Source of the DNA: Kribbella antibiotica
GTDB lineage: Bacteria > Actinomycetota > Actinomycetes > Propionibacteriales > Kribbellaceae
Direction: 5' to 3'
Assembly: GCF_004349055.1 (NCBI RefSeq)
Contig: NZ_SMKX01000020.1
Location: 1-64,000 of the forward strand
DNA length: 64,000 bases
Shown: in pieces, positions 10,136-46,807 of the stretch
How positions within the stretch are numbered: the first letter of the stretch is position 1
Layout: each line of letters starts with the position of its first letter
The notes under the pieces: generated by a model
Told to the model about the DNA's origin: nothing
The model's input: only the letters and a program-made list of their open reading frames with translations
Databases searched by the model: none
Program-made: the position numbers and the translations under genes

Positions 10136-10140
10136 CCCCT

Positions 10141-10194
10141 TGTTCCGGAACCGCTTTCCCGCTAACTTGGCGCTCTTCTGCAAGCGCTTTCCCA
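10141..10194 (+). promoter_or_regulatory. Promoter and internal CGCTTTCC boxes of the importer 2 operon
   Basis: TTGTTC (10141-10146), a 17-bp spacer and TAACTT (10164-10169) form a good promoter with a start expected near 10176. The spacer holds GGAACCGCTTTCC (10148-10160) and the leader holds GCAAGCGCTTTCCC (10181-10194), both resembling the pectin-type box. A protein bound at these places would block polymerase, as expected for LacI-family repression. Confidence 0.5.
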
Positions 10195-10207
10195 GAGGAG
10201 GGGGCCG

Positions 10208-19398: not shown

Positions 19399-20246
19399 TT
19401 GACCCCCGCGCTGCCGCCGCTGATGTCCATCTCGTACAGGTACTTCTGGCCGAGGTAGTAGACCAGGATCATCGGCAGCGTGAGCAGGATCGACCCGACC
19501 ATCACCAGGTTCCACGGCGGCGCCTGCAGGGCTTGCGACGTACTGGTGATGTACTGCACGCCCAGCGCGAGCGGCATCTTGGACTCGTCGTTGAGGTAGA
19601 TCAACGGGCCCATGAAGTCGCCCCAGGTGGCGGTCAGCGTGAAGATGCCGATCGCGATCAGGACCGGGGCCAGCATCGGCAGCATGATCCGGCGGTAGAT
19701 GCCGAAGAAGCCGAGGCCGTCCACCATCGCCGCCTCGTCGATCTCGCTCGGCAGCCGGGAGACGAACTGCCGGACCAGGAAGACGTTGAAGGCGTTCGAG
19801 AAGAAGTTCGGCACGATCAGCGGCAGGAACGTGTTCACCCAGCCGAGCTCCTTGAACAAGATGAACTGCGGGATCATCGTGATCTGGGCGGGGATCATCA
19901 TCGTCGCGATGACGATCAGGAACAGGGCGTTCTTGCCCGGTGCCCGCAGCCGCGCGAACGCGTAGCCGACCAGGCCGCTGGACAGCACCTGACCGACCAC
20001 GGCGCCGAGCGAGATGATCACCGAGTTCAGCAGGAACCGCTGCATCGGCAGCTCGGTGGAGAAGACCCGGGTGAAGTTCTCCCAGTGGAACTCGCGCGGG
20101 AGGATCGTGAAGGTGTTGGCGTTGACCGTCTGGTCACTCGACAGCGCGATCGACACCACGAAGACGAGCGGCACCGACAGTACGGCGGAGACCACGATCA
20201 GCGTGGCGTAACTGAAAGGCGTGGCACGGAAAGCGCGCACGGACAT
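19395..20246 (-). CDS. Sugar ABC transporter permease, MalG type (importer 3)
   Basis: A 283-residue permease with six membrane segments and the EAA motif (DEAAMVDGLGFFGIYRRIMLP). It starts right next to the stop of the MalF-type gene, and its stop overlaps the GH35 start. The C-terminal tail, after KYLYEMDISGGSAGVK, is typical of MalG-type subunits. Confidence 0.93.
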   Translation of the reverse strand: MSVRAFRATPFSYATLIVVSAVLSVPLVFVVSIALSSDQTVNANTFTILPREFHWENFTRVFSTELPMQRFLLNSVIISLGAVVGQVLSSGLVGYAFARLRAPGKNALFLIVIATMMIPAQITMIPQFILFKELGWVNTFLPLIVPNFFSNAFNVFLVRQFVSRLPSEIDEAAMVDGLGFFGIYRRIMLPMLAPVLIAIGIFTLTATWGDFMGPLIYLNDESKMPLALGVQYITSTSQALQAPPWNLVMVGSILLTLPMILVYYLGQKYLYEMDISGGSAGVK

Positions 20247-22557: not shown

Positions 22558-22571
22558 TGTTAGCGTGAACA
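22558..22571. promoter_or_regulatory. Arabinose-type operator (GH35 operon side)
   Basis: TGTTAGCGTGAACA matches the 14-bp consensus shared with 22758, 22772, 29425, 35957, 36034 and 40817. It lies 108 bp upstream of the importer 3 binding-protein gene. Confidence 0.7.
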
Positions 22572-22743: not shown

Positions 22744-22785
22744 TTGACCTATACCACTGTGAGCGCCAACATGTGAGCGCTAACA
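22744..22785 (+). promoter_or_regulatory. Promoter with two abutting arabinose-type operators before chvE
   Basis: TTGACC (22744-22749), a 17-bp spacer and CAACAT (22767-22772) form a possible promoter. TGTGAGCGCCAACA (22758-22771) and TGTGAGCGCTAACA (22772-22785) touch each other and cover the -10 and start region, so a bound LacI-type protein would block transcription. Confidence 0.6.
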
Positions 22786-22814
22786 GTCCGCCGTGTCCCC
22801 GGAAGGGAAAAGTT

Positions 22815-23954
22815 GTGAACAAGAGGTTTGTGGCCACCGTGAGTGGCGCCCTGCTGGTGCTCGGTCTTGCGGCGTGCGGTGGCCAGGGAGCGGGCGGTGG
22901 TACCGATACGGCGAGTGAGCAGCCCAAGGACCTGACCATCGGGGTGGCGATGCCGACGCAGACGTCGGAGCGCTGGATCGCCGACGGCAAGGCGGTCAAG
23001 GAGAAGCTCGAGGCCAAGGGCTACAAGGTCGACCTGCAGTACGCGAACGACGACATCCCGACGCAGTCGCAGCAGGTGGACCAGATGATCACCCAGGGCG
23101 CCGATGTCCTGATCATCGCGGCGGTCGACGGCACCGCGCTCAGCGGTCAGCTGCAGGCGGCGGCCGACAAGAAGATCCCGGTGATCTCCTACGACCGGTT
23201 GATCCGCGGCAGCAAGAACGTCGACTTCTACGTGAGCTTCGACAACTACAAGGTCGGCGTCGCCCAGGGCAAGGCGCTGCTGCGCGGCCTCGGGCTGGAG
23301 AACGCCGACGGGTCGAAGGGCGCCAAGACCGGCCCGTTCAACGTCGAGCTCTTCGCCGGATCGCTGGACGACAACAACACCAGCTACTTCTTCCGGGGCG
23401 CCATGGAGGCCCTGAAGCCGTACCTCGACAGCGGCGCGCTGGTCGTGAAGTCCAAGCAGACCAAGATCGAGCAGGTCGCCACCCTGCGCTGGGACGCGGA
23501 GACCGCGCAGAAGCGGATGGAGAACCTGCTCACCTCGGCGTACAACGACGGTAGCAAGGTCGCCGGCATCCTCTCGCCGTACGACGGTATCTCCCGCGGC
23601 ATCATCACCGCGCTGCAGAACGCCGGCTACGGTACGGCGGCGAGCGCGCTGCCGGTGGTCACCGGTCAGGACGCGGAGATCGCGTCGGTCAAGCTGATCA
23701 ACGACGGCGTCCAGAGCTCGACGATCTTCAAGGACCTCCGGCTGCTCGCCGTCCAGGCGGTCACCGCGGCGGAGGCGTTCCTGCAGAAGAAGACGCCCGA
23801 GGCCAACGACACCAAGTCCTACGACAACGGCGTCAAGGTGGTTCCGGCGTACCTACTGCCGATCCACACCGTCTTCAAGGCGGACGTGACGAAGGAGCTG
23901 GTCGACACCGGCTTCTACACGGCCGCGCAGGTGGCGGCCGGTAAGACCAAGTGA
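22815..23954 (+). CDS. chvE: Multiple-sugar substrate-binding lipoprotein, ChvE-like
   Basis: A 379-residue RbsB-type periplasmic-binding protein with a signal peptide and lipobox GLAAC. The mature part begins [15 protein letters not shown], and [16 protein letters not shown] plus SYDRLIRGS are typical of ChvE/XylF proteins, which bind monosaccharides such as xylose, arabinose and galactose. GTG at 22815 follows GGAAGGGA. It is followed with a four-base overlap by the ATPase and then the permease, the same order as chvE-gguA-gguB. With GH127 in the operon and arabinose-type operators in the promoter, L-arabinose is the likely main ligand. Confidence 0.88.
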
Positions 23955-25489
23955 CCGACGTACTGCTGGAGATGCGGGGGATCACCAAGCGATTCCCCGG
24001 GGTGATCGCGCTGCAGGATGTCTCATTGGAGGTCCGCCACGGCGAGATCCATGCGATCTGCGGCGAGAACGGCGCCGGCAAGTCGACCCTGATGAAGGTG
24101 CTGTCCGGTGTCTACCCGAGCGGTAGCTACGACGGCGAGATCAGGTTCGACGGCCGGCCGGTGCACTTCGCCGGTATCCGGGACAGCGAATCGGCCGGGA
24201 TCGGCATCATCCATCAGGAACTGGCGCTGGTGCCCTACCTGTCGGTTGCCGAGAACATCTTTCTCGGCAACGAACGCCGGGGCCGCAACGGCCTGATCGA
24301 CTGGAACCGGACCAACGCCGACGCCGCGCAACTCCTGGCCGAGGTCGGCCTGGACGAGAACGTCGTCACGCCGGTGATCCAGCTCGGCGTCGGCAAACAG
24401 CAGCTGGTCGAGATCGCGAAGGCGCTGTCGAAAGACGTGCGGCTACTGATCCTCGACGAGCCGACCGCCGCGCTGAACGACGTCGACTCGGCGCACCTGC
24501 TCGATCTGCTCCGCCGGCTTCGCGACCGTGGCATCACCTGCATCATGATTTCGCACAAGCTGAGCGAGATCACCGCGATCGCCGACTCGACCACGGTGAT
24601 CCGGGACGGCCGCACGGTGGAGACCTTGGACATGGGGTCTGCGGAGTCGACTCAGGAGCGGATCATCTGGGGCATGGTCGGCCGCGACCTGGAGAGCTTC
24701 TACCCGGAGCGCGACTCTGCGCCCGGGCCGGAGGTGCTGCGGATCGAGGACTGGACGGTGTGGCATCCCGTGCAGCCGCGCAAGGTGGTCGACGGCGCCG
24801 GCCTGACTGTGCGGGCTGGTGAGGTGGTCGGGATCGCGGGCCTGATGGGCGCGGGCCGGACCGAGCTGGCCATGAGCCTCTTCGGGCGTTCGTACGGACG
24901 CAATATCAGCGGCCGTTTGTTCATGCACGGCAAGCAGATCCGGGCGCGCACGGTGGCCGAGGCGATCGGCAACGGCATCGCCTACGCCACCGAGGACCGC
25001 AAGCACTACGGCCTGAACCTGATCGCCGACGTCCGCACCAACGTGTCGGCGGCGGCGCTCGGCAAGCTCGCCCGCGCCGGCTGGGTGAACGGCCACGAGG
25101 AGATCAAGGTCGCCGAGGCCAGCCGCCGGGACATGAACATCAAGACCCGCACCGTCCTGGACACCGTCGGCACCTTGTCCGGCGGCAACCAGCAGAAGGT
25201 TGTGCTGTCGAAATGGCTCTTCACGGATCCCGACGTACTGATCCTCGACGAGCCGACGCGCGGGATCGACGTCGGCGCCAAGTACGAGATCTACACGATC
25301 ATCAACCGCTTGGTGGCCCAGGGGAAGGCGGTCGTCGTCATCTCGTCCGAACTCCCCGAACTGCTCGGCACGTGCGATCGGATCTACACGCTGTCGGCCG
25401 GCCGGATCACCGGTGAGCTACCGGTCGGCGAAGCGACCCAGGAAGACCTGATGGCACTCATGACGACCGACAAGGAAGACAATGCGTAA
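23951..25489 (+). CDS. gguA: Sugar ABC transporter ATP-binding protein, GguA/MmsA type
   Basis: A 512-residue protein with two fused ABC domains, as in CUT2 sugar importers. The first has an intact Walker A (GENGAGKST) and Walker B ([11 protein letters not shown]) but a changed signature (LGVGKQQ). The second has a degenerate P-loop (GLMGAGRTE), the signature LSGGNQQK and [11 protein letters not shown]. This asymmetry is normal for the family. GTG at 23951 overlaps the ChvE stop (GTGA). It powers uptake through the permease encoded next and is the only ABC importer ATPase in the window. Confidence 0.93.
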
Positions 25490-26630
25490 TCTGCGGCAGA
25501 GTGGCATCTACATCGCCTTCGTCGCCATCGTGGCGCTGTTCGCCGTCCTGACCGACGGCGTGCTGCTCAGCCCGGGCAACCTCACCAACATCGTGCTCCA
25601 GTACTCCTACATCCTGGTGCTCGCGATCGGCATGGTGATCCTGATCATCGCCGGTCATATCGACCTGTCGGTCGGTTCGATCGTGGCGCTGACCGGCGCG
25701 GTGTCCGCCGTACTCGTCATCCAGAACGGTCAACCCTGGGCGGTCGGTGCGCTAGCTGCCGTAGCCGTAGGCGTCGCCGTCGGTGCCTGGCATGGCTTCT
25801 GGGTCGCGTACGTCGGGATGCCCGCGTTCATCGTCACTTTGGCGGGCATGCTGCTGTTCCGGGGGCTGACGCTGCAGGTGCTCGACAACGTGTCGCTCTC
25901 GCCGTTCCCGCCCGAGTACCAGAAGGTCGCGAGCGGCTTTCTGAACGGCCTGATCGGCGGCCAGGGGTACGACGCCTTCACGTTGCTGATCGCTGCGCTC
26001 GCGGTCGGCGGTTATGCGGTTGGCGTGTTCCGGACCCGGCTGGCCCGCATCCGGTACGAACAGCCGGTGGAGTCGTTCCCGTTGTTCGTCGCGCGAGTCC
26101 TTCTGGTTGCAGCGGTCGTCATGTACTTCGCCTGGCAGCTCGCCCACGCCCGCGGACTGCCGATCGTACTGATCATCCTTGCTGTGCTCGTGATTGCTTA
26201 CGGCCTGGTGACGAAGGACACCGTCTTCGGTCGTCAGGTCTATGCGATCGGCGGCAACCTGTCCGCCGCGATGCTGTCCGGCGTAAAGGTCCGCAAGGTC
26301 AACTTCTGGATCTTCGTCAACATGGGCTTCCTGGCGGGCGTTGCCGGTGTCATCTACTCGTCCCGCTCGAACGGCGCGCAACCGGGCGCCGGCAACATGT
26401 TCGAGCTGGACGCCATCGCGGCGGCCTTCATCGGCGGCGCCGCCGTCGCGGGTGGCGTCGGCACGGTAGTCGGCGCGATGGTCGGCGGCCTGATCATGGC
26501 CGTCATGAGCAACGGAATGCAGTTGCTGGGTGTCGAGCAGTCGACCCAGTCGGTTATCAAGGGCCTCGTGCTCCTGCTGGCCGTTGCCTTCGACATCTAC
26601 AACAAGCGCCGCGCCGGAGCGACTCGATGA
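25482..26630 (+). CDS. gguB: Sugar ABC transporter permease, GguB/MmsB type
   Basis: A 382-residue permease with eight to ten hydrophobic segments, including the family segment [22 protein letters not shown] near the N-terminus and [19 protein letters not shown] near the C-terminus, typical of the RbsC/XylH/GguB group. The ATG lies 8 bases inside the ATPase gene end. Its stop overlaps the GH127 start (ATGA), so the glycosidase is translationally coupled to uptake. Confidence 0.93.
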
Positions 26631-28489
26631 CCGTGCTGGGACCCGCAGCACCACGACAACTCCCGTACGTCGCTCCGCTGCCACTGAGCGCCGTACGGTT
26701 CGATCCGGCGTCGCTGCTGGGCAGCTGGCAGGAGCTCAACGCGGCGGCGACCATTCCGCACTGCCTGGACAACATTCGGCGTACTGGCGTTCTCGAGAAC
26801 TTCAGCCGGCTCACCGAAGCTGATCCGCCGGGCAAGTTCGAAGGATTCTGGTTCGCGGATTCCGATCTCTACAAGACGATCGAGGCGATCGGCTGGGAGA
26901 TGGGCCGCAGCGGCACCGGTCAGTGGGCAGAGGTGCTCGCCGAGGTGGCGGATCTGCTCGAGCGCGTCCAGGAACCCGACGGTTACCTCAACAGCAATAT
27001 CCAGGGAACCGAGGGGAAGGAACGCTTCGGCCATCTCGAGCAGAGCCACGAGCTGTACTGCGCGGGGCATCTGCTGCAAGCTGCCGTCGCTCTCCACCGT
27101 GGTGGCGGCGACACCCGCATCCTCGCGATCGCGCGGAGAGTGGCCGACCTGATCGTCAACGCACTTGGCGACGAGTTGCCGCTCATCGACGGGCACCCGG
27201 AGGTCGAGACTGCGCTCGTGGAGCTCTACCGCGAAACGGGCGACGAGTCCTACCTGCGCGCGGCCGAGCTCCAGGTCGAGCGGCGTGGGCATCAGACCTT
27301 CACCGGCGGCTTCGGGCCGCCGTACTACCAGGACCACCTGCCGGTGCGCGAGGCGGTCGAGGCCACCGGGCACTCCGTACGGCAGCTCTATCTGGCCGCG
27401 GGCGTCACCGACCTATACCTCGAGAACGGCGACGAGTCGTTGCTCAAGGCAATGGAACAATTGTGGGACAGCGCCTTCGGTAGCAAGATGTACCTCACCG
27501 GGGGACACGGATCCCGTCACCGCGACGAGGCGTACGGCGATGCCTACGAGCTGCCGCCGGACCGTGCGTATGCCGAGACCTGCGCGTCGATCGCTGCCCT
27601 GCAATGGTGCTGGCGGATGCTGCTGGCGACCGGTCAGGCCCGGTACGCCGAGGAGATGGAGCGCTCTCTCTTCAATGCCATCGCTGCCTCGATGGCGTCG
27701 AGCGGCACCGCCTTCTTCTACTCCAACCCGCTGCAGCTCCGCACCGGTCACGACGGTTCGAGCGAGGACGCGCCCAGTGAACGGCTGCCGTGGTACGACT
27801 GCGCTTGCTGTCCGCCGAATCTGGCCCGCCTGCTCGCTTCGCTGCACGGCTACGCCGCGACCTCGGATGCCTCCGGCCTTCAGCTACACCTGCTCAGCGC
27901 CGGCACGTTCACCGCAGACGCACTGACCGCCGTCGTCGAGTCCGGCTATCCCTGGGACGGCGACGTCCTGGTAACGGTCAGCGGACAAGGGGAGTTGGCG
28001 ATCCGCGTACCTGCATGGGCGACTGGAGCCACTCTCACGGTGACTGGCGCGACGGTCCTTGTCGAGCCGGAGCCAGGTGCCTATCTCCGCGTCTCGTGCG
28101 AAGACGGCGCGACCGTGCGGCTCAGCTTGCCGCTGACTCCTCGGCTGATCCGCGCCGACGAGCGAGTCGATGCTGTCCGCGGCTGCGTGGCGATCGCCCG
28201 CGGCCCGCTCGTGTACTGCATCGAGCAGGCCGATCTCCCCGACGGCGTCCTCGTCGAGCAATTGCGCCTCGCCGCCTCGGTGCCCATCACCGAAGAACGC
28301 GTGCCTGACGACCTGACCCCTGTCAGGCTTCGGCTCTCCGCCATCGCCAGGCCGTTGGAGACCGACCTGTACGCGGCGTACCAGCCGGACCTTCCAGCCG
28401 GTACGCCGATCACTGTCACCGCAATCCCGTATCACGCCTGGGCGAATCGCGGGCCTGGCGCCATGCGGGTCTGGCTCCCGCTGAGCTGA
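26627..28489 (+). CDS. GH127 beta-L-arabinofuranosidase
   Basis: 620 residues without a signal peptide, so cytosolic. The (alpha/alpha)6-barrel family GH127 is recognised from GGHGSRHRDEAYGDAYELPP, the zinc-site segment with E317 and C319 (YAETCAS) and the cysteine cluster DCACCPPN with C394/C395. In the bifidobacterial enzyme HypBA1 the equivalents are E338, C340, C417 and C418, with a cysteine as nucleophile. HypBA1 removes L-arabinose from beta-1,2-L-arabinooligosaccharides of hydroxyproline-rich glycoproteins such as extensin. It is the last gene of the ChvE-GguAB operon, so freed arabinose and its transport are linked. A 6-bp inverted repeat (28486-28491/28501-28506) spans the stop codon. 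Confidence 0.9.
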   Translation: MTVLGPAAPRQLPYVAPLPLSAVRFDPASLLGSWQELNAAATIPHCLDNIRRTGVLENFSRLTEADPPGKFEGFWFADSDLYKTIEAIGWEMGRSGTGQWAEVLAEVADLLERVQEPDGYLNSNIQGTEGKERFGHLEQSHELYCAGHLLQAAVALHRGGGDTRILAIARRVADLIVNALGDELPLIDGHPEVETALVELYRETGDESYLRAAELQVERRGHQTFTGGFGPPYYQDHLPVREAVEATGHSVRQLYLAAGVTDLYLENGDESLLKAMEQLWDSAFGSKMYLTGGHGSRHRDEAYGDAYELPPDRAYAETCASIAALQWCWRMLLATGQARYAEEMERSLFNAIAASMASSGTAFFYSNPLQLRTGHDGSSEDAPSERLPWYDCACCPPNLARLLASLHGYAATSDASGLQLHLLSAGTFTADALTAVVESGYPWDGDVLVTVSGQGELAIRVPAWATGATLTVTGATVLVEPEPGAYLRVSCEDGATVRLSLPLTPRLIRADERVDAVRGCVAIARGPLVYCIEQADLPDGVLVEQLRLAASVPITEERVPDDLTPVRLRLSAIARPLETDLYAAYQPDLPAGTPITVTAIPYHAWANRGPGAMRVWLPLS

Positions 28490-28520: not shown

Positions 28521-29390
28521 TCAGTAGCCGTAGCGGTTCTTGAGGTGCCGCCACCAGTCCCGGAACATCCAGGCGTCGAACTCAGTGATGTTCGTCGCGC
28601 TGCCGGCCTTCATCAGGAAGCAGCACTGGCCGGTGGGGGTCCAGTCGTAGAAGTCGTCGAGCCCGAAACTGTGTCCCATCTCGTGCAGGAGGATGTGGAC
28701 ATTGTCGGAGTTGAGATTGTTGACGTAGTACTCGCTGCCGATGCGTTGGCCCCAGTCGCCGCCGGCGCCGCCGTTCATTCCTGCGGTGAGCCACAGCGAC
28801 ATGTCGTAGTGGCGGGCCACGCCGCCGGGGCAGCGCGGATACTGCCCGTTCTGGTTGAAGAACCGGGCACAGTCGGGTGCGCACTGTGGCGCATCCTCGC
28901 GGATGTTGTTCACGGTGATGTCGACGGAGTTGTCGTTCCACTTCAGCGTGGAACGGTCGCGGACGGCCCAGCCGACGACCTTGAGGGGCACTTGCTGGTA
29001 CGGCCACTTGTTGTGCCCGACCATCAGGTCCGTCCACTTCTTGAACTGCCGTGCCAGGGTTGCATGAACCTGGTCGCGCAGTGCCGCGGTGACCGGCGCA
29101 TTGGAGTCCCACCGGACGCAGTAGTTGATGTACCCGCGGTTGGCGATGACCTGGTCCCAGCCATAGTTGCGAAAGCCGTACAGATCGCCGTAGGTGGATT
29201 CTTGATGCCTCCAGACCTCGTCAAGCGGCTGCACCAGGTTGGCGGGCGGACTCCAAGTGGCTGGGACTGCCGCAGCCGAACGGTCAGGTCCAGCGGCAGC
29301 CTGGACCGGTACGAGCGTGGAGCCCAGTACGGCGAGCAGGGCGACGAACCGGATGACGATCCAGCGACGACCGGGAATTTTCCTTCGCAT
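28521..29390 (-). CDS. Secreted metzincin-like zinc metalloprotease
   Basis: 289 residues: a basic N-terminus and signal peptide (cleavage near VQAAA, about 33), then a single catalytic domain with six cysteines. The zinc motif is HEMGHSFGLDD (H236, E237, H240, D246), i.e. HExxHxxGxxD, with Asp as third ligand as in snapalysin of Streptomyces, and M260 could be the Met-turn. It resembles an uncharacterised group of actinobacterial and fungal secreted proteins, so the substrate is unknown. ATG at 29390 is chosen because AAGGAG lies five bases upstream. An arabinose-type operator 35 bp upstream places this protease under the same control as araBDA and GH127, suggesting a plant cell-wall glycoprotein as target. 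Confidence 0.8.
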   Translation of the reverse strand: MRRKIPGRRWIVIRFVALLAVLGSTLVPVQAAAGPDRSAAAVPATWSPPANLVQPLDEVWRHQESTYGDLYGFRNYGWDQVIANRGYINYCVRWDSNAPVTAALRDQVHATLARQFKKWTDLMVGHNKWPYQQVPLKVVGWAVRDRSTLKWNDNSVDITVNNIREDAPQCAPDCARFFNQNGQYPRCPGGVARHYDMSLWLTAGMNGGAGGDWGQRIGSEYYVNNLNSDNVHILLHEMGHSFGLDDFYDWTPTGQCCFLMKAGSATNITEFDAWMFRDWWRHLKNRYGY

Positions 29391-29424
29391 GGTCACTCCT
29401 TCGGTGGGGGCGCAGAGGAGGAGA

Positions 29425-29438
29425 TGTTCGCGTTAACA
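29425..29438. promoter_or_regulatory. Arabinose-type operator before the metalloprotease
   Basis: TGTTCGCGTTAACA, extended to an 18-bp near-palindrome by GA and TC flanks, lies 35 bp upstream of the metalloprotease start. It fits the consensus of the other arabinose-type boxes. Confidence 0.7.
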
Positions 29439-29478
29439 TCAGGAAAGGCGAGTGCCTGCGGACTGTCAAGACTCCGGG

Positions 29479-30288
29479 TTAGCTGTTGCTGGCGCGGCCG
29501 ACGTAGACGTTGCGGGCGCGGTAGTAGGTGTCACCGGAAGGGCCCGATGAACCTGACGCACCTTCCATCTGCAGGTTGATGATGATGTTCATCGGTTTGC
29601 CGACAAAGTTGGTGCCCCGGTGCTGGCCGACCCAGGTGCCGTCGAGGTAGTAGTGGATGTCGACGTCGGTCGCGTTCACCTTGGTGATCCAGGCCCGGTA
29701 GCCGTGCCAGCCACCCGGATTCGACACCGGTACGACGGTGTTGTCCCAGCCGCCGTCGTAGGTGTTGAACCAGTTGCGGGCGTCACCCTTGAACTCGAGG
29801 ATGTCGCTCTCCGGCGGCCAACTGTTGACCCCGGTCAGCCAGAACGCGGGCCAGGTCCCGCGGCCGGAGGGAGCCTGGAATTCGCCCTTGACCTCCCATT
29901 GCGGGTACTGGTCGTTGACCAGCACGCGGAGCTTCGAGTGGATCGCGCCCGCGTGGTAGTGGATCGGCAAGTACGGGTCTTTGCTGCTCTTGCCTTCGTC
30001 CCAGTTGATCCGAGAGCCCTTGAGCACCAGCACCCCGCCAGACTCAAGGTAGACGTGGTTGTGGTCGGTCTTGCTCGCATACATCCGCGCGGTGCCGTTG
30101 TGGTCGGAACCCCACGGATAAAGGTAGTTCCAGCTGGTCTCCAGGGCGGAGTAGCTGGCGAAGCTGTTGGCCGGAAGTGCTGTCTCCCAGGCCAGTTCGC
30201 GGGCCTGCGCAGGCGCGGCATTGGCGACTGCTGCGCCCGCGATCGTCGTACCGGCGGCAAGCAGGAAAGATCGTCGCTTGAGGGGCAT
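29479..30288 (-). CDS. Secreted GH16 family glycosidase, Tat-exported
   Basis: 269 residues with a Tat leader (LKRRSFLLAAG, cleavage near AQARE). The rest is a GH16 jelly roll: WPAFWLTG followed by the catalytic E160-S-D162-I-L-E165 (family motif ExDxxE), and WHGYRAWIT plus the DIHYYLDGTWV strand. GH16 enzymes cut internal beta-1,3- or beta-1,4-linkages in glucans, galactans or xyloglucan; the substrate here is not clear, but a beta-galactan or beta-glucan of plant wall would fit the surroundings. GAGGAG precedes the ATG at 30288. It is a single gene ahead of the metalloprotease; I see none of the window's operator boxes before it. Confidence 0.88.
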   Translation of the reverse strand: MPLKRRSFLLAAGTTIAGAAVANAAPAQARELAWETALPANSFASYSALETSWNYLYPWGSDHNGTARMYASKTDHNHVYLESGGVLVLKGSRINWDEGKSSKDPYLPIHYHAGAIHSKLRVLVNDQYPQWEVKGEFQAPSGRGTWPAFWLTGVNSWPPESDILEFKGDARNWFNTYDGGWDNTVVPVSNPGGWHGYRAWITKVNATDVDIHYYLDGTWVGQHRGTNFVGKPMNIIINLQMEGASGSSGPSGDTYYRARNVYVGRASNS

Positions 30289-30416
30289 GTGGGCGGTCTC
30301 CTCAGGAAGGGGTTCGATCAGCGTCCTGCTGTTCCTCGGCGTGCAGCAACCCCGCGTACACACTCGACCACACTTCATCCGAAACGCTCATCCGCCACAG
30401 TGCGGGTCTCGCCAGA

Positions 30417-32149: not shown

Positions 32150-33655
32150 TCAGAATCCTTGGGCGAGGCGGTAGTAGGCCTGGGACCAGCGCAACTCCTG
32201 GGTGAAGCGGCGGGTGGTGGTGTCGGCGTCGATGACGGCCAACTCGGTCCGGGTCATCTCGGCTAGGTCGGCGAGCTCTTCGACACCGATCGCCGTACTG
32301 AGCACTGTGTGGTGTGGGCCGCCGGCGGTCAGCCAGGCTTCGGCCGAGGTGCGGAGGTTGGGGCGGGGTTCCCAGACGGCCCGGGCGACGGGGAGCTGGG
32401 GGAGCGGGTGGTCCGGAGCGACGACGTCGATCTCGTTGGCGACTAGGCGGAAGCGGTCGCCGAGGTCCGCCATGCCGACCACGACACCCGGGCCGGGCGC
32501 GGCGTCGAAGACGAGGCGGACCGGGTCTTCGCGGCCGCCGATACCGAGCGGGTGGATCTCGGCGGTCGGGGTGCCGGCGGCGATGGACGGGCAGACCTCG
32601 AGCATGTGGGCGCCGAGGATGCGCTCCGCGCCCGGTGTCAGGTTGTACGTGTAGTCCTCCATGAACGACGTACCGCCGGGGAGGTTGCCAGCGGCAACCT
32701 TCAGCGTGCGCAGCAGTACGGCGGTTTTCCAGTCGCCCTCGCCGCCGAAGCCGTAGCCGTCGGCCATCAACCGCTGGACGGCGAGACCGGGGAGTTGGCG
32801 CAGCCCGCCGAGGTCCTCGAAGTTCGTCGTGAACGCGGTGAAACCCCCGTCGAGGAGGAAGGCGCGCAGTCCGGCCTCGAGTCGCGCGGCGTACCGCAGC
32901 GACTCGTGCTGCTCGCCACCAGGACGCAACTCCGGTACGACGTCGAAGTCGTACTCCTTGAGGAGAGTGTCGACGGCGCTGTCGGAGATCTGGTCGACGA
33001 CGGCGACCAGGTCGTTGACGCCGTAGGTGTTGACCGAGACCCCGAAGTGCAGCTGGGCCTCGACCTTGTCGCCTTCGGTCACGGCGACGTCGCGCATGTT
33101 GTCACCGAACCGGGCGACCCGCATGGTCCGCATGGCCGCGTATCCCGCCGCCGCCCGGGCCCAGACCGCGATCCGGGACCGGACCGCCGGGTCGGCGACA
33201 TGTCCGGCGACCGTGGTCCGGGCGACGCCGAGCCGGGTCTGGATGTAGCCGAACTCGCGGTCGCCGTGCGCGGCCTGGTTCAGGTTCATGAAGTCCATGT
33301 CGATCGTTGCCCAGGGCAAATCGACGTTCGCCTGGGTGTGCAGGTGCAGCAGCGGCGTGCGGAGGGCGTCGAGACCGGCGATCCACATCTTCGCGGGGGA
33401 GAAGGTGTGCATCCACGCGATCACGCCGGCACAGGCGTCGTCCGCGTTCGCGTCCAGGCAGATTCGGCGGATCGAGTCCGCGTCGGTGAGGACGTCCTTC
33501 CACACCACGCGCGGGGCCAGGTCGCCGGATGCCTCCAGCTGCTCGGCCAGGCCGCGGGACTGCTCAGCCACCTGGCGCAGGGTCTCTTCGCCGTACAGGC
33601 CCTGGCTGCCGGTGAGGAACCAGATTTCGGTCGAGGTCACAGATGTCTCCGTCAT
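32150..33655 (-). CDS. araA: L-arabinose isomerase
   Basis: 501 residues, the usual AraA length. The N-terminal [16 protein letters not shown], the segment [15 protein letters not shown] and the C-terminal [22 protein letters not shown] with [18 protein letters not shown] are hallmark stretches, including the metal-site Glu and His residues. It converts L-arabinose to L-ribulose in the cytosol. The ATG overlaps the araD stop (ATGA). It is the last gene of the leftward araBDA operon and is followed by a terminator hairpin. Confidence 0.98.
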
Positions 33656-34305
33656 CGTTGGCCGTACACGTTCTGATAGCGGTCGTAGAGCCGGTCGACG
33701 TCGTCCTGGGCGATCGTGACCAGGTCACCGGCGGACCGGGCCAGGTGCACGGTGCGCGCGACGTCCTCGCACATCACTGCCGCTTTGACGGCGGCTTTCG
33801 CGTCCTTGCCGATCGTGAAGACGCCGTGGTTGCGCATCAGGACCGCTGGGGAGCGGTGCCCGGCCAGCGTCGCCACGATGCCGCGGCCGATGTCGTCGTT
33901 CCCGATCAGGGCGAACGGCCCGACCGGGATCTCGCCACCGAACTCGTCGGCCATCGCGGTCAGGACGCACGGGATCGGTTCGCCGCGTGCCGCCCAGGCG
34001 GTCGCGTACGTCGAGTGGGTGTGGACGACGCCGCCGACCTCCGGCATTTCGCGGTACACGTAGGCGTGCGCCGCGGTGTCGCTCGACGGATCGAGGTCGC
34101 CCTCCACCACCTTCCCGTCCAGATCGCACACGACAATCGCGTCGGGGTGCAGATCGTCGTACGAGATCCCACTGGGTTTGATGACGAACAGGTCCTCGCC
34201 GGGCACCCGGCCGGAGACGTTGCCGGCGGTCCAGGCGACCAGGCCGTAGCGCACCAGTTCGGCATGCAGAGCGCAGACTTCTTCGCGGATGCTGCTGAGC
34301 GTCAT
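33652..34305 (-). CDS. araD: L-ribulose-5-phosphate 4-epimerase
   Basis: 217 residues of the class II aldolase/adducin fold. [10 protein letters not shown] binds phosphate, SSDTAAH (72-80) and the zinc ligands H95 and H97 ([13 protein letters not shown]) and H160 (MRNHGVF) are intact. It turns L-ribulose 5-phosphate into D-xylulose 5-phosphate, the entry to the pentose phosphate pathway. It lies between araB and araA with four-base overlaps on both sides. Confidence 0.97.
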
Positions 34306-35981
34306 TTGGCGACCTCGTTCCGAAGTGCGCGCAACCGGTGGAGTACGCCGCTGCCGCCGTGCCGGTCGCCCGCGAAATAGTCGTGCAGGGCGCGATACTC
34401 GGCGTACAGGCGGTCGTACACGTCGGCGCGGTCGTGGTCGGGGACGAAGGCGGCCTCGGTACGCGCGCCCATGGCGGCGGCCGCGGCCTTGACGTCCGGA
34501 TAGGTGCCGGCGGCAACGGCCGCATGGATCGCCGAGCCGAGGGCTGGGCCCTGCGTGGAACGGATCACCGACAACGGTCGCCGCAGGACGTCGGCGTAGA
34601 TCTGCATCACCAGCCGGTTCTTCAGCAGACCACCGGCGACGATGAACTCGGTGACCGGTACGCCGGACTTGTCGAAGGCGTCCAGGATCGTGCGGGTCCC
34701 GAACGCGGTGGACTCGATGAGGGCGCGATACGTGTCCTCCGGCCGGGTCTCGAGCGTCTGACCGATCACCACCGCGGACAGGTCGTGGTCGACCAGGACG
34801 GACCGGTTCCCGTTGTGCCAGTCGAGGGCGATCAGGCCGTGCCGGCCGACCGGCTGCTGCTCGGCGAGCGAGGCAAGGTGGTCATGCACGGTTTCGCCGC
34901 GAAGCTGCGCCTCGGCGTGATACTCGGGCGGTACGCAGGTGTCCACGAACCAGCCGAAGATGTCGCCGACCGCCGATTGGCCGGCCTCGTAGCCCCACAG
35001 GCCGTCGACGATGCCGTCGCGGACGACGCCACACATGCCTGGCACTTCGGCCAGTTGGTCGGACGACATCACGTGGCAGGTCGACGTACCCATGATCGCT
35101 ACCAGTTGCCCGGGGCGGACGGCATCGGCCGCAGCCGCGGTGACATGGGCGTCGACGTTGCCGACGGCTACCGCGATGCCTGCGGGGAGGCCGGTCAGAG
35201 CGGCTGCCTCGGTGGTGAGGCGACCGGCCAGCCCGCCGAGCGGGGACAACCGATGCCCCAGCTTGTCGGTGAAGTCACCGAAGGCGGGATTGAGCGCCTC
35301 CAGGTACTCCCGGGACGGGTAGCCGTCCTCGGTGTGGATGCCCTTGTATCCGGCGGTGCAAACGTTGCGGGACTCGACGCCGGTCAGTTGCCAGACGATC
35401 CAGTCGGCCGCCTCGATCCAGCGCTCGGCCCGGCGGTAGGTCTCCGGGTCCTCCTCCAGCACCTGCAGACCCTTGGCGAACTCCCACTCCGAGGAGATCC
35501 GGCCGCCGTACCGCGACAACCAGCGCTCGCCGCGCTCTTCCGCGACAGCGTTGATCCGGTCGGCCTGCGGCTGCGCCGCGTGGTGCTTCCAGAGCTTGGG
35601 CCACGCGTGCGGGCGAAACCACAGACCGTGCACCTCGCACAACGGCGTACCGTCGGCGAGGGTCGGCAGCACGGTGCAGGCGGTGAAGTCGGTGCCGATC
35701 CCGACCACGTCGGTCGCGGAGATACCGGCTGCGGCGATGGCTTCCGGAATCGCATGCCGCAGGACGTCGCGCCAGTTGCTCGGCGCTTGCAGAGCCCACG
35801 CCGGTCCGAGCGTGATGTCGGATCCGGGGAGCCGGTGCTCGATCACGCCGTGCCGGTACTCGGACACCGCGGTGCCCAGCTCGGCACCGTCCGAGACCCG
35901 GACCACGACCGCCCGGCCCGACAAGGTCCCGAAGTCGACCCCGACGACGTACTGACTGTGAGCGTTAACATTCTCGGTCAT
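34302..35981 (-). CDS. araB: Ribulokinase
   Basis: 559 residues of the FGGY kinase family. VVGVDFGTLSGRAVVV at the N-terminus is the AraB phosphate-1 motif, and ALDWHNGNRSVLVDHDLSAV plus the C-terminal EFIVAGGLLKNRLVMQIYADVL are typical of ribulokinase. It phosphorylates L-ribulose. The ATG at 35981 is preceded by a weak GAGAG; the only upstream alternative would add residues over the operator. An arabinose-type operator lies inside codons 4-9 and another 50-65 bp upstream, so roadblock repression is likely. Confidence 0.97.
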   Translation of the reverse strand: MTENVNAHSQYVVGVDFGTLSGRAVVVRVSDGAELGTAVSEYRHGVIEHRLPGSDITLGPAWALQAPSNWRDVLRHAIPEAIAAAGISATDVVGIGTDFTACTVLPTLADGTPLCEVHGLWFRPHAWPKLWKHHAAQPQADRINAVAEERGERWLSRYGGRISSEWEFAKGLQVLEEDPETYRRAERWIEAADWIVWQLTGVESRNVCTAGYKGIHTEDGYPSREYLEALNPAFGDFTDKLGHRLSPLGGLAGRLTTEAAALTGLPAGIAVAVGNVDAHVTAAAADAVRPGQLVAIMGTSTCHVMSSDQLAEVPGMCGVVRDGIVDGLWGYEAGQSAVGDIFGWFVDTCVPPEYHAEAQLRGETVHDHLASLAEQQPVGRHGLIALDWHNGNRSVLVDHDLSAVVIGQTLETRPEDTYRALIESTAFGTRTILDAFDKSGVPVTEFIVAGGLLKNRLVMQIYADVLRRPLSVIRSTQGPALGSAIHAAVAAGTYPDVKAAAAAMGARTEAAFVPDHDRADVYDRLYAEYRALHDYFAGDRHGGSGVLHRLRALRNEVAK

Positions 35982-36047
35982 GGATTGCTCTCTGTGACGG
36001 TGACAAGCGGAGGAGGGGTGGAGATTCAGCAACAGTTAACGCTAACA
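35957..36047. promoter_or_regulatory. Two arabinose-type operators at the araB start
   Basis: TGTGAGCGTTAACA (35957-35970) lies within the first codons of araB, and AGTTAACGCTAACA (36034-36047) lies upstream and overlaps the stop codon of the GH39-like gene. Their spacing of 77 bp, about seven helical turns, would allow DNA looping by a LacI-type tetramer. Confidence 0.7.
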
Positions 36048-38684
36048 GCCTGACCGCTTCTGCGTAATAGGCGTCCCGAGAACGATCGGGGCGATCGTGA
36101 TCTTGTCGACGTCGGGTGCGTAGGCGCCGGCGTTGCCGAAGACCAGTGATCCGCTCGCCGTCTTCAACTCCACACCGATGGTCCGTTCGAGGAAGCTGTC
36201 CCAGGCATAGGTGTAGCGGAAGTACGCGTGCCCGGCGCTCGCGGCGCCGCCGGTCTCGGTGACGTCCAGTCGTCGATCGACGACCTGCGGGTTGTAGGCG
36301 TGAGGCCCGCCGAGCTCCGCGTTCGCGTAGCTGACGGCGATGTCGTAGGCGCCGGGCTTGTCGAAGCCAGGTCCGCGCGGGATCTCGAACGTGTTGGCCG
36401 CGCCGTTGCCGATGTAGCCGAGTGCCTTCAGTCCGGATGCGTTGCTGCCTGAGGCAGTCGGGTAGGTGTTCACCGCCGTCGTGCCATGCCGTACGGCGTT
36501 CTCGGCCTCGATAGTGACCGCTGCAGTGTCGGCCGCCGCGGCTCGGGTCGTGGTGACCTGCTTGAGCAGGATCCCGGCGGCCGAACTCAGCTCGAGTTCG
36601 TTGATGCCCTGAGCCAATCGCACCCGGGCGGTGGATCGCCAACTGCCGTCGCGCGCCGCGGTGAGCTTCGTGACCGAGCGGCCGTTCACCCGGAGGTCAG
36701 CGGTCGCTGCCGCCGAAGTCCGGTAGTCCAGGGTGACGTCGTAGTACCCGGTCTCCCACGCGTTGGCGTAGACCTCGGCGCGCTGGCCAGCCCCGCGCAC
36801 AGAGCCGTAGCCCCGGGCTCCAGTCGTGCCGTAAGTGACCTGCGCGCCGCCTGCGTACCGGAGCGTGGAGGCGGGGTAGACGGTCGGCTCGCCGTCAGTG
36901 ACATCGGTCAGCAGGAACTTGTCGAGCGTGATGTCCGAGTTCGGCAGTACGGCGACGCCGTCCTCGCTCGCGCGCAGCGACAAGGTGTGCTGTCCGGCGG
37001 TCAGCGGGATCGTCACCTCCGAGCTGCCGCGGTACTGCCACTTCTGGTAGTCCGTGAGCGCGAGATCGGCGGCGTACTGGACGATCGTCGACCTGGTCCC
37101 GTCGACGAACAGAGCATGCCGGCCAGGCTTGCCCGGGGTGGCGCCGATGACCTGGAACCGGTACTTGCCGCTCCGCGGAACGGTGACAGTCCAGTCCGCC
37201 TTCGAAGTCGGCTGGTTGAACGAGCCGACGTCGCGGCCGCCGGAGGCGAGGAACTTCCAGCCGCCACCGGCCTGCGGGTCCTGGGTGTAGACGGTGGCGG
37301 CGGTGAGCGCCGTGTTCTCCGCTTCGGTCTGGGCCGTCCAGACGCTTCCGGCCACCGGAGTGCGTTCCTGCTCAGGCGTGATGACGACCTGGTAGGCGGC
37401 GTACCGGTCATAGGTCGGTACGTCGAAGCTGACGGTGCCGTTCACCAGGGCGACACCGTCGAGGACCTTGATCACCGGTGGGGTTCCGGCCACTCCCTCG
37501 GCGCCGGAGAGCGTGTTCTCGCGAACCTCGACATCGACCTTGCTGCCGAACGTCGCCGCGTCGAGACCGGCCAGCTTGAGCGAGACGGTCTTGCTGCCGC
37601 CGCCGTACAGGACGGTTGCGCGCTTGTTTGCGGTGTCGACTGCACCGATCGCCTGCAGGGTGTCGACCGCGTTGAGGGCGGGCGGGGTGACCTTCACGGT
37701 CCGGCTGCCGGCAAGGTCGCCGTACCACTTGTAGAGCCACCAGCCGGCGTTGGCGGAGTTCGTGCGAGCGCTGTTGTCGTTGAAGTTGCCGGCGTAGTTC
37801 CAGTACGCCGTCTGTCCGTCGACCTTCAGGTCTTCCATGATGGACAGCCACTGGATGAGCTGCCCGGGCGTGCCCATGTCGCGGAGCATCCGGTACTCGG
37901 TGATGTTGATCGGGATCGGCCCGACGCCGACGCTGGTCTCCAGTCGGCGGTAGTCGGCGAAATGCGATCGGAAGGTCCGCAGGTTGTCGATACCGAGTTC
38001 GTGCCAGATGAAGATGTCGGGCAGGACAGCGTTGGCCTTGGCATAGTTCAGGAAGTCCGCGGAGCGGGCCGGCTGCCAGCCGGTGTCGCCGGGGCCGCCG
38101 ATGCGGGCGTGCCCGAGGCCGTGCCGCGCGTACACCTCCTGGATCTTGCTGTACGTCGCCTTCCAGTCCGCCAGGAAGGTGTTCTTCATCGTCGCCCAGT
38201 TCGCGTACCAGTTGCCGCCGTCCGGCTCGTTGAACGGGATGAAGACGTAGTCCTTGGGGCGTGCGGACTTGGTCGCGACGGCCTCCGCCACGGTCTCGAC
38301 GATCTCGAGGTAGTTGCTCGGCCGGACGCCGCCGTTGTACGGCCAGTCGGGGTAGAAGTCCTGGACATAGATGTACATGTCCTTGCCGTGCTTGGCGAAG
38401 AAGCCGTCCTCGACCTTGAGCGCGTCACCGCTCGGATGCTGAGTCCCGTACGGCGCCTTCTGCGAAGTGTTGGTGATCGCGGCCCCGTTGATGAGCGCCG
38501 ACGTCGGCGCACCCTCGTCACCGAACCCGTACAACGTGCCGGTCGCTCCGCCACGGAAGGATCCGGTGGACTGCGCGAAGTCGACACTCAGTACGTCGGC
38601 GTTCGGATCTGCGGCGGCGGCCGGGACTGACAATCCCGCGGTGGTAATGGCGACAACCGTCATGATCTTAAGGAAACTCCTCAT
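36042..38684 (-). CDS. Secreted GH39-like glycoside hydrolase with C-terminal carbohydrate-binding domains
   Basis: 880 residues with a Sec signal peptide (cleavage near AAAADP, about 25). Residues about 30-330 are a clan GH-A barrel: acid/base E153 in FIPFNEPDGG and nucleophile E263 in INITEYRML, with an overall pattern closest to GH39. A short Ig-like beta domain follows (about 340-450), then two CBM35/CBM6-like modules (about 455-610 and 740-870) around a further beta domain. Known GH39 activities include beta-xylosidase, alpha-L-iduronidase and, in bifidobacteria, an enzyme releasing alpha-galactosyl-1,3-L-arabinose from gum arabic. Coupling to the GH36 alpha-galactosidase (ATGA) and to araBDA favours the last. 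Family assignment is likely but not certain. Confidence 0.7.
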   Translation of the reverse strand: MRSFLKIMTVVAITTAGLSVPAAAADPNADVLSVDFAQSTGSFRGGATGTLYGFGDEGAPTSALINGAAITNTSQKAPYGTQHPSGDALKVEDGFFAKHGKDMYIYVQDFYPDWPYNGGVRPSNYLEIVETVAEAVATKSARPKDYVFIPFNEPDGGNWYANWATMKNTFLADWKATYSKIQEVYARHGLGHARIGGPGDTGWQPARSADFLNYAKANAVLPDIFIWHELGIDNLRTFRSHFADYRRLETSVGVGPIPINITEYRMLRDMGTPGQLIQWLSIMEDLKVDGQTAYWNYAGNFNDNSARTNSANAGWWLYKWYGDLAGSRTVKVTPPALNAVDTLQAIGAVDTANKRATVLYGGGSKTVSLKLAGLDAATFGSKVDVEVRENTLSGAEGVAGTPPVIKVLDGVALVNGTVSFDVPTYDRYAAYQVVITPEQERTPVAGSVWTAQTEAENTALTAATVYTQDPQAGGGWKFLASGGRDVGSFNQPTSKADWTVTVPRSGKYRFQVIGATPGKPGRHALFVDGTRSTIVQYAADLALTDYQKWQYRGSSEVTIPLTAGQHTLSLRASEDGVAVLPNSDITLDKFLLTDVTDGEPTVYPASTLRYAGGAQVTYGTTGARGYGSVRGAGQRAEVYANAWETGYYDVTLDYRTSAAATADLRVNGRSVTKLTAARDGSWRSTARVRLAQGINELELSSAAGILLKQVTTTRAAAADTAAVTIEAENAVRHGTTAVNTYPTASGSNASGLKALGYIGNGAANTFEIPRGPGFDKPGAYDIAVSYANAELGGPHAYNPQVVDRRLDVTETGGAASAGHAYFRYTYAWDSFLERTIGVELKTASGSLVFGNAGAYAPDVDKITIAPIVLGTPITQKRSGC

Positions 38685-40765: not shown

Positions 40766-40816
40766 AGGACTCCAGATGGCGGGAGCGGATCCGTAACAGG
40801 GGCTTGCGCTCGATCC

Positions 40817-40830
40817 TGTTATCGCTAACA
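40817..40830. promoter_or_regulatory. Arabinose-type operator between GH36 and LacI genes
   Basis: TGTTATCGCTAACA lies 8 bp before the LacI start and 51 bp before the GH36 start, in the only control region of both. It points to autoregulation by the LacI protein at 40839. Confidence 0.75.
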
Positions 40831-40838
40831 CTCTAGCC

Positions 40839-41900
40839 ATGATTGTGAACGGTCACAACGGCGCAGGCCAACAAGAACCCGAAGCCGCCGCGGCGTCGAT
40901 CCGGGATGTCGGTGCGGCTGCCGGCGTGTCCTACCAGACCGTTTCGCGCGTCATCAACGGCCGTCCGAACGTCAGTCAGGAGACCAAGGACAGGGTCAAT
41001 GCAGCCATCGCCGAGCTCGGTTACCGACCGAGCCGGGCCGCGCGGGCGCTGGCCCATGGCAGCGATCGCGTTGTCACCGTGCTGACGTCGAACACCCGCT
41101 TGTACGGGTATGCGGAGACGCTCGGTGGTATCGAGGAGGCGGCCCGAGCAGCCGGCGTACAGGTCGCGATCCGGGTGCTGGAATCGGATCGACCGGACGA
41201 CATTGCGACCGCGGTCGAAGGGGTTAGCGACCCCCGTGCGGGTGCGGTGATCGTGCTGGCCTTCGATCGGGCAGGTGCCCGGGCTCTGCAGGCTTTGCCG
41301 GCCAACGTGCGGTCCTCGGCTGCGGCCGAGTCATACCTGGGCCGGCGGACGTCGTCCGCGGACAGCGCGCGGTGGACCTGGTTCGACGACATCCTGGCTG
41401 CGGAGCACGCAACCCAGCACCTGCTGGATCTTGGGCATCGCACGGTGCACCACATCGCGATCCCGTCGACCACCAGCGTTGGTGATCGGCAGCGCGGTTG
41501 GAAGCGCGCATTGGAGGCGGCGGGTGCCTCGGTGCCGGAGGTGGTCCGCCCGCGCAACTGGAGTATGGCCGGCGCGCACGAAGCCGCCCTCGAACTACTG
41601 CTCGACCCCACCGTGACAGCGGTGCTCTGTGGAAACGACGACCAGGCACTCGGAATCATGCGTGCCGCCCATGATCGCGGCCTCCGGATCCCTGATGACC
41701 TCAGTGTCGTCGGCTTCGACGACGTACCGGCTGCAGCCTTCCTCACTCCTGCCCTGACCACGGTCAGGTTCGACTTCGCAGCACTCGGCCGCCGTGCGTT
41801 CGAGCTGCTGGGGGACGGCCTGGATCCCGCACAGGTCGCGGCGCCGGCTCTCGTCGTACGGGAGAGCACCGGCCCAGCACGTCAAGACAAGGATGACTGA
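40839..41900 (+). CDS. LacI family regulator, probable arabinose repressor
   Basis: 353 residues: LacI-type helix-turn-helix at about 20-45 (SIRDVGAAAGVSYQTVSRVINGR), hinge GYRPSRAARALA, then a periplasmic-binding-like sensor ending in PDDLSVVGFDDVPAAAFLTP. No ribosome-binding site precedes the ATG, so it may be leaderless or start at the GTG two codons later. It is divergent from GH36 and co-transcribed with importer 4 (TGATG overlap). The operator in its own promoter recurs beside araB, the metalloprotease, the ChvE and the GH35 operons, making it the best candidate for regulator of these, functionally like AraR. Confidence 0.92.
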   Translation: MIVNGHNGAGQQEPEAAAASIRDVGAAAGVSYQTVSRVINGRPNVSQETKDRVNAAIAELGYRPSRAARALAHGSDRVVTVLTSNTRLYGYAETLGGIEEAARAAGVQVAIRVLESDRPDDIATAVEGVSDPRAGAVIVLAFDRAGARALQALPANVRSSAAAESYLGRRTSSADSARWTWFDDILAAEHATQHLLDLGHRTVHHIAIPSTTSVGDRQRGWKRALEAAGASVPEVVRPRNWSMAGAHEAALELLLDPTVTAVLCGNDDQALGIMRAAHDRGLRIPDDLSVVGFDDVPAAAFLTPALTTVRFDFAALGRRAFELLGDGLDPAQVAAPALVVRESTGPARQDKDD

Positions 41901-46654: not shown

Positions 46655-46689
46655 AAGACAGTCCTCTGGGTTGGTGGGCGGGCCCAGGA

Positions 46690-46720
46690 AGTATATCGAT
46701 AAACCCAGCATCACGGTCAG
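46690..46720 (-). promoter_or_regulatory. GH51 promoter with TATCGATA palindrome
   Basis: On the minus strand CTGACC (46720-46715) and TATACT (46695-46690), 19 bp apart, form a possible promoter. The near-palindrome TATATCGATAAA (46692-46703) overlaps the -10. It differs from both main operator types of the window. Confidence 0.45.
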
Positions 46721-46738
46721 GCGCCCTCCGGCCCGCTC

Positions 46739-46784
46739 TTGACCCTCGAACAAGCCCGCACCTACATTCGTCGAAGCGCTTCGA
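46739..46784 (+). promoter_or_regulatory. GH31 promoter with TCGAAGCGCTTCGA operator at the start point
   Basis: TTGACC (46739-46744), an 18-bp spacer and TACATT (46763-46768) form a promoter; the perfect 14-bp palindrome at 46771-46784 covers the expected transcription start. Confidence 0.7.
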
Positions 46785-46807
46785 CAATCCAACCGAAAGG
46801 CCGCTTG

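Follow-up and report, generated by a model that had tools for sequence, protein, structure and literature searches.

We propose, with moderate confidence, that a gene in a 64,000-nucleotide stretch of Kribbella antibiotica DNA (the window) encodes a secreted zinc-dependent metzincin endopeptidase, and that this enzyme acts as protein-cutting partner to those that remove hydroxyproline (Hyp) arabinosides from plant hydroxyproline-rich glycoproteins. Extensins and other glycoproteins of this kind form cross-links in plant walls, and Hyp-arabinosides shield them. In many related soil bacteria, relatives of the protease adjoin arabinose-stripping enzymes for Hyp-rich wall proteins, and its probable task is therefore to digest the polypeptide of these glycoproteins.

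The protease gene and its predicted fold

The protease gene lies on the minus strand (28521..29390) and encodes 289 amino acids from an ATG, while an alternative GTG start at 29396 would give 291 (minus-strand ORF 28521-29396). By inspection, the protein comprises a signal peptide of about 31 residues (residues 1-31, 29298..29390, minus strand, with a probable cut after VQA), a short spacer and a catalytic domain of 244 residues, which alignments A2 and A4 and the AlphaFold2 model place at residues 46-289 (28524..29255, minus strand). The alignment locates the zinc motif HEMGHSFGLDD, of the form HExxHxxGxxD, at residues 236-246 (28653..28685, minus strand), and a putative Met-turn at Met260 (28611..28613, minus strand), 14 residues past the Asp ligand. 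Judged by the motif, Asp246 would be the third zinc ligand. The protease has a single match in its own 9.28-Mb genome, and its nearest named relative, from Kribbella albertanoniae, is 89% identical.

An AlphaFold2 model built from 74 sequences reached a pLDDT of 90.8 and a pTM of 0.90. Foldseek gave two matches at E <= 0.001, both of them chains of the ADAMTS-1 entry 2v4b (best E 5.6e-4, TM 0.45). In VIA-align, the best match was ADAMTS4 (Z 9.3, 166 residues, 3.6 A, 13% identity), and all 50 matches listed were ADAM/ADAMTS, venom metalloproteinase or MMP entries at 8-17% identity, with a Z of about 9 representing a modest excess over the background stated for the tool. The structure prediction and fold comparison proposed in the initial annotation therefore returned a metzincin fold, closest to ADAMTS in the predicted model. 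Three features of the metzincin superfamily MA(M) are present, namely the zinc motif HExxHxxGxx(H/D), a Met downstream of the third ligand and the predicted fold; together with the signal peptide recognized by inspection, they agree with the earlier description of a secreted metzincin-like protein.

No Pfam or NCBIfam model matched the window protease above its cut-off. The sole Pfam match, Reprolysin_5 (M12B), scored 24.3 bits against a cut-off of 27, and the same model matched 51 of 79 family members at E <= 0.01 (best E 4.1e-5). TIGR03296 (NCBIfam, M6) scored 21.2 bits with the window domain against a cut-off of 110.8 (E 2.2e-4, 55 residues aligned) and matched 67 of 75 members at E <= 0.01 (best E 3.5e-5). 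A PDB sequence search with the window protease reached only E 0.61 at best, and the family profile A4 retrieved no PDB chain up to E 5. These searches thus yielded sub-threshold motif matches only, as expected of a group without a curated family, which is what had been supposed from the sequence; in the literature searched, outside subscription journals and in the accessible part of each source, we recognized nothing that describes this protease family.

The window protease resembles M12B (adamalysin/ADAMTS) and M10 (MMP) peptidases in the fold assigned to its model by Foldseek and VIA-align, in the HExxHxxGxx core and in the Met that follows. In M12B and M10, the third zinc ligand is His, whereas the window protease has Asp at this position and no obvious pro-domain. 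As for the M6 immune-inhibitor-type peptidases, TIGR03296 aligns the motif region only, far below its cut-off. Snapalysin (M7) is a secreted actinomycete enzyme, and the window protease could be its relative, a small neutral protease of generic function whose link to arabinose genes is accidental. Indeed, snapalysin carries the motif HExxHxxGxxD and a conserved Met about 10 residues on, compared with 14 in the window protease (PMC3890501, accessible text). In contrast to snapalysin, however, the window family has four conserved cysteines, glycan-binding-type modules and sugar operators, it finds no match among PDB sequences even with the family profile, and its gene linkage is far beyond chance in Streptosporangiaceae and Micromonosporaceae (below). 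Snapalysin was also absent among the 50 VIA-align matches listed, an absence that excludes nothing. We regard this reading as very improbable. Of the label 'snapalysin-like' in the initial annotation, the Asp ligand stands, and nothing beyond it found support, with no PDB chain to E 5 and with ADAMTS, adamalysin and MMP entries as the best folds.

Members and distribution of the family

The family set was obtained by scanning GTDB contigs with a three-sequence profile, which gave 77 named loci with 64-89% identity over the best segment. They carry 23 genus labels plus one unplaced MAG and belong to Actinomycetota (Nonomuraea 20, Microbispora 11, Catellatospora 9, and others), with three Herpetosiphon (Chloroflexota). 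We aligned these 77 sequences with the window protease and L004, giving 79 rows. H236, E237, H240, G243, D246 and M260 are identical in 77 rows, and the remaining two, L042 and L081, are gapped, their reading frames stopping before the zinc motif. Such conservation indicates that the motif is not due to chance, and the reading frame, the HExxHxxGxxD motif and the downstream Met, first picked out from the window alone, are real. Cys91, Cys170 and Cys174 are present in 78 of the 79 rows and Cys187 in 77, while Cys256 (47 rows) and Cys257 (48 rows) form a variable pair that is often replaced by Gly. At L081 (Herbidospora solisilvae, 9707-10510), the protease match stops after query residue 136, and the permease/GH127 region nearby appears fused or decayed.

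In the tree, the window protease clusters with K. albertanoniae, four Kibdelosporangium-type rows, Streptomyces hoynatensis and Marinitenerispora in a clade of 8 rows (support 99/87), and by inspection the seven of these that are uncut by a contig end, the window included, look like bare catalytic domains. On its 3134 bp contig (L005), the K. albertanoniae protease is followed by a GH43 gene apparently without its N-terminal part, which could reflect decay or an assembly fault. The protease of L010, labelled Rhodococcus rhodnii NRRL B-16535 with a 12.4-Mb genome, pairs with that of Kibdelosporangium aridum (support 100/96), and this record may be misnamed. Within the genus Kribbella, a full catalytic domain was found in only 2 of 38 genomes; one genome (G026, L003:1501-1557) retains roughly the last 19 protease residues at 84% identity, an apparent deletion remnant.

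At E <= 1e-30, the protease was found in 28 of 200 Streptosporangiaceae genomes with profile A2 and in 112 of 300 Micromonosporaceae genomes with profile A4, the two families being named here after their centre genomes, Nonomuraea jabiensis and Catellatospora vulcania. A single-sequence search of 396 phylum genomes found it in its own genome only, and since the profile detected it in 112 of 300 Micromonosporaceae, that search understates the range of the family. The family presumably has fungal relatives as well. A viral origin was rejected: no relative appeared in viral contigs or phage records, and BFVD gave no match to the protease at E <= 0.001.

Linkage to GH121 and GH127 genes

In the window, a GH127 beta-L-arabinofuranosidase gene (26627..28489, plus strand, Pfam E 6.4e-85) converges on the protease gene and stands in line with the genes of a ChvE-GguA-GguB multiple-sugar importer (22773..26630, plus strand, NCBIfam matches above cut-offs); a GH127 gene and a sugar importer beside the protease are features of a Hyp-arabinoside locus. 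Upstream of the protease lies the gene of a GH16-like protein (29479..30378, minus strand), for which Pfam, NCBIfam and the PDB (an endo-1,3-glucanase, E 6.5e-4) gave weak matches. The window further contains araA, an araD-like aldolase gene and araB (32150..36032, minus strand), and genes for a family 5/39-like glycosidase with CBM35 (36042..38684, minus strand), an alpha-galactosidase of the Melibiase family (38681..40840, minus strand), a LacI-family repressor (40839..41900, plus strand), an alpha-L-arabinofuranosidase matched over its C-terminal domain (45161..46792, minus strand) and a GH35 family protein (16861..19515, minus strand). GH121 was found neither in the window nor in its genome. 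Given this absence and the many galactose- and arabinose-acting enzymes of the window, an arabinogalactan-protein target is as plausible here as extensin. The glycosidase and alpha-galactosidase genes at 36042-40840 resemble those for gum-arabic arabinogalactan-protein degradation, a resemblance only; in Bifidobacterium longum, GH39 and GH36 enzymes degrade this substrate, according to the text available from PMC8939339.

Among the relatives, a second neighbour besides GH127 is a GH121 gene of the HypBA2 type, whose products match the beta-L-arabinobiosidase PDB 6m5a (E 4.3e-197 and 2e-194), an enzyme type with specificity for arabinosides on hydroxyproline. GH127 is found no more than about 10 kb from the protease in 17 of the 77 named loci and GH121 beside it in 13, one of these an 89-residue fragment (L035); one or the other is near in 21 loci, and neither was seen in the flanking DNA examined in 56, all counts including the decayed L081 and the L035 fragment. 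The flank is under 5 kb on a side in only 12 of the 77 loci, so short contigs explain few of the 56 empty ones. Homologues do therefore occur near arabinan or arabinogalactan genes, as had been anticipated for the window protease, and the strongest partner is GH121. This partner points to the Hyp-arabinosides of extensin-type glycoproteins rather than to arabinan.

We compared this linkage with chance. GH127 occurs in 2-8 copies per genome in 15 genomes, corresponding to a chance of adjacency of about 0.9% per locus, a figure from a picked set, as the 15 genomes were partly chosen for nearby GH127 or GH121. The 19 genomes checked for GH121 were also partly chosen in this way, while the family-wide searches were unpicked. 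In the phylum set, GH121 (E <= 1e-50) was present in 2 of 396 genomes. Among 200 Streptosporangiaceae genomes, it occurred in 18 of 28 with the protease versus 16 of 172 without it (Fisher p 6e-10), and among 300 Micromonosporaceae genomes in 91 of 112 versus 28 of 188 (p 4e-31), both p-values being inflated because the genomes are related and the counts not independent. Where both genes were present, GH121 and the protease were no more than 3 kb apart in 5 of 18 Streptosporangiaceae genomes (0.07 expected for a distance of up to 10 kb), and at least 31 of 91 Micromonosporaceae genomes had the pair within 10 kb (0.33 expected, from a rounded mean of 1.4 copies and a 9 Mb genome); the other 60 of the 91 had no pair within 10 kb among the matches listed.

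Several arrangements of the two genes were observed. GH121 stands directly upstream of the protease on the same strand in L027, L043, L057 and L093; GH121 follows downstream of the protease, with GH127-family genes separating or preceding the two, in L065, L085, L087 and L089, and with another gene separating them in L086; and the two are divergent in L084, L088 and L092. The ten regions of the arrangement survey were chosen for having both genes and illustrate orders rather than give a count, and gene calls in the relatives came from a GC3 heuristic that misplaced some starts and missed the L091 protease. GH127, GH43, LacI and ABC importer genes fill out the GH121-protease loci, as in L087, which reads GH43, LacI (opposite strand), solute-binding protein, permease, GH127, protease, GH121. 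Pfam confirmed GH43 for three neighbours (L084, L087 and L092). Weak GH43 matches at L060 and L073 were dropped, as they overlap the protease itself, the query having contained out-of-frame protease sequence.

Other neighbours were also noted. Directly upstream of the protease, Nonomuraea L017, L018 and L042 have a PL3 pectate lyase gene, and Nonomuraea L026 and L041 a fragment match. DUF6055 proteins are encoded beside the protease in 4 of 77 loci (L031:8594-9913, L072:12319-14715, L032, and a 65-residue fragment in L024), with a visible HExxH in two of the sequences. One DUF6055 protein has been placed in MEROPS M106 (PMC11241649, as far as its accessible text goes), and these loci possibly hold two unrelated metallopeptidases each. 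Proteins of about 500-690 amino acids with He_PIG and F5/8-type domains (L018:12290-14248 and relatives) are a repeated neighbour of the protease, seen in seven Nonomuraea loci and one Streptosporangium.

In most relatives, a CBM2 or F5/8-type module precedes the catalytic domain, and the window protease is bare. Pfam assigned CBM2 to 26 of 79 members, F5/8-type models to up to 29 (DUF7402) and a ricin-type module to one; by BLAST, 37 of 78 have F5/8, 26 CBM2 and 15 neither, a group that includes contigs breaking off at the gene. With the F5/8 module of the L018 protease as the query, modules at the GH121 end were 68-73% identical in 9 of 13 loci (L010, L014, L020, L027, L029, L031, L043, L052 and L075), while three GH121 loci reached 33-37% at best (L019 36%, L057 33%, L065 37%), L019 having an additional 48% match just before GH121. 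Only L027 and L029 of the nine have the module on the protease too, the Herbidospora proteases bearing CBM2 and those of Kibdelosporangium type being bare; L085, L089, L092 and L093 also have an F5/8 module on both proteins. In seven Nonomuraea, an exoprotein encoded next to the protease also has a module that is 78-84% identical to that of L018.

Since the protease adjoins large modular glycosidases in some loci, it might be a processing enzyme that trims or releases the bacterium's own neighbouring multi-domain glycosidases at their linkers. However, many relatives have CBM2 or F5/8 modules of their own, some have wall-sugar operators, and copies without such neighbours are common, and we consider this role distinctly improbable.

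Operators and the proposed role

A LacI-type operator, GATGTTCGCGTTAACATC, an exact palindrome, lies 32 bp upstream of the protease ATG (29423..29440; operator sites are given without strand). The pattern ATGTTNNCGNNAACAT occurs once in the 9.28-Mb genome, at this site, and TGTTNNCGNNAACA with at most one mismatch occurs 9 times in the window versus 0.82 expected, a number reached in 0 of 100 shuffles; these two results rule out a chance operator. Two of the nine sites are intragenic (24244 and 37514), and the other seven comprise one before the protease, three in the importer-GH127 divergent region, two near the araB start and one between the LacI and alpha-galactosidase genes. Thus, TGTTAGCGTGAACA (22558..22571) lies where the ChvE-GguAB-GH127 operon and the solute-binding-protein gene 21149-22450 diverge, a region in which 22758 and 22772 mark further sites with one mismatch each; TGTGAGCGTTAACA (35957..35970, one mismatch) lies near the araB start, with another site at 36034; and TGTTATCGCTAACA (40817..40830) lies where the LacI and alpha-galactosidase genes start. 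The protease site is of the same TGTTNNCGNNAACA class as those before the importer-GH127 genes, araB and LacI, and, as far as sequence can tell, the operator at 29425 is shared by the protease and the arabinose genes, as the initial annotation had claimed. The LacI-family protein (40839..41900) is a candidate reader of these operators.

We then scanned upstream of the protease in the 71 loci with at least 200 bp of upstream DNA. TGTTNNCGNNAACA with at most one mismatch was found in 16 loci versus 0.45 expected and TGGGANCGNTCCCA in 9 versus 0.10 expected, while 46 of the 71 had neither site; neither pattern was found in L084-L089. All nine TGGGANCGNTCCCA sites precede CBM2 forms of the protease, and 14 of the 16 TGTTNNCGNNAACA sites (TGTT..AACA) precede F5/8 forms, the other two preceding one CBM2 form and one form with neither module. 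The operator type thus appears to follow the N-terminal module in part of the family, a coupling that rests on few lineages, as most of the 16 TGTTNNCGNNAACA loci are from Nonomuraea. TGGGAGCGCTCCCA is present exactly in three Herbidospora loci and equals the consensus site for CebR in cellulose regulons (PMC5332605, in the part accessible). A symmetric-palindrome scan was positive in 25 of 72 loci versus 3.5 expected; it did not call the window site because only 4 of the 6 inner arm pairs match, and the half-site pattern does call it.

The CBM2 forms of Catellatospora and Herpetosiphon have a cellulose-type operator and lie distant from GH121 and GH127 in the flanking DNA examined, so the substrate may be wall protein generally. 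The protease would then be a general scavenger that digests any exposed wall protein for nitrogen or wall opening, its grouping with glycosidases reflecting common wall-degrading regulons. CebR-like operators before CBM2 forms in Catellatospora, Herpetosiphon and Herbidospora are consistent with this reading, as are the pectate lyase genes or fragments adjoining the protease in five Nonomuraea loci and the 56 of 77 loci with neither GH127 nor GH121 in the flanking DNA examined. On the other hand, the repeated tandem adjacency to GH121 in several arrangements, including the three Herbidospora with CebR-like sites, and the F5/8 module common to protease and GH121 argue against it, and we find such a general role rather unlikely.

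The reading we prefer, a role on hydroxyproline-rich glycoproteins, would run as follows. LacI-type repressors would turn the set on upon sensing wall sugar; GH43, GH121 and GH127 would strip arabinofuranose chains from the glycoproteins, which may be of the extensin type and possibly arabinogalactan proteins; the protease would cut the polypeptide or glycopeptide; and the released L-arabinose would be imported by the transport set of the partner enzymes, an ABC importer. In many relatives, the N-terminal CBM2 or F5/8-type module would moor the enzyme through presumed glycan binding. What the analysis shows is the sequence with its invariant active site, the predicted fold, the operator sequences, the gene linkage and the modules in common; catalysis, the substrate, the succession of steps, the binding of glycans through the modules and which repressor acts are what we infer here, the substrate from gene linkage and the published functions of the neighbours. 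In a narrower form, which we hold tentatively and at slightly less than an even chance, the protease would be a dedicated peptidase, the protein-cutting arm of a HypAA-HypBA2-HypBA1-type system, that recognizes Hyp-arabinosides or the newly bared Hyp-rich backbone and was separately placed under arabinose- or cellulose-type repressors with the matching module.

The accessible parts of PMC6085000 and PMC7263609 describe GH43, GH121 and GH127 enzymes that, one after another, attack the Hyp-linked arabino-oligosaccharides carried by extensin and solanaceous lectins and that, in B. longum, share a cluster with an ABC importer. The actinomycete loci repeat the GH43/GH121/GH127 logic of the HypAA-HypBA2-HypBA1 systems of B. 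longum and Xanthomonas, and the B. longum importer, and add a metzincin. The authors of PMC6085000 expected de-arabinosylated glycoproteins to be degradable by proteases and, for a putative prolyl oligopeptidase gene beside xehypAA in X. euvesicatoria, suggested glycoprotein degradation, in the text available; that peptidase class is unrelated to the window metzincin. In the accessible main text of the Bifidobacterium papers PMC7263609 and PMC10850190, the words 'protease' and 'peptidase' do not occur. The Svx/AvrXca gluzincins of soft-rot bacteria are likewise secreted metallopeptidases, for which extensin cleavage has been proposed (PMC10815107 and PMC9266454, accessible portions), but they have the gluzincin motif HExxHx22E and another fold class. 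OgpA of Akkermansia is a metzincin-type metallopeptidase nearest M12 that acts on O-glycosylated protein (PMC7518263, in its available text); unlike the window protease, it belongs to a HExxHxxxxxH motif family and has animal mucin as its substrate.

Taken together, the enzymes that strip Hyp-arabinosides are already known, while for the protein part the accessible literature offers only the suggestions of Svx gluzincins and a prolyl oligopeptidase. If the proposed substrate holds, the protease would help to explain how soil actinomycetes use hydroxyproline-rich glycoproteins, and it would provide a tool for wall-protein analysis and a plant-wall counterpart of the mucin O-glycopeptidases.
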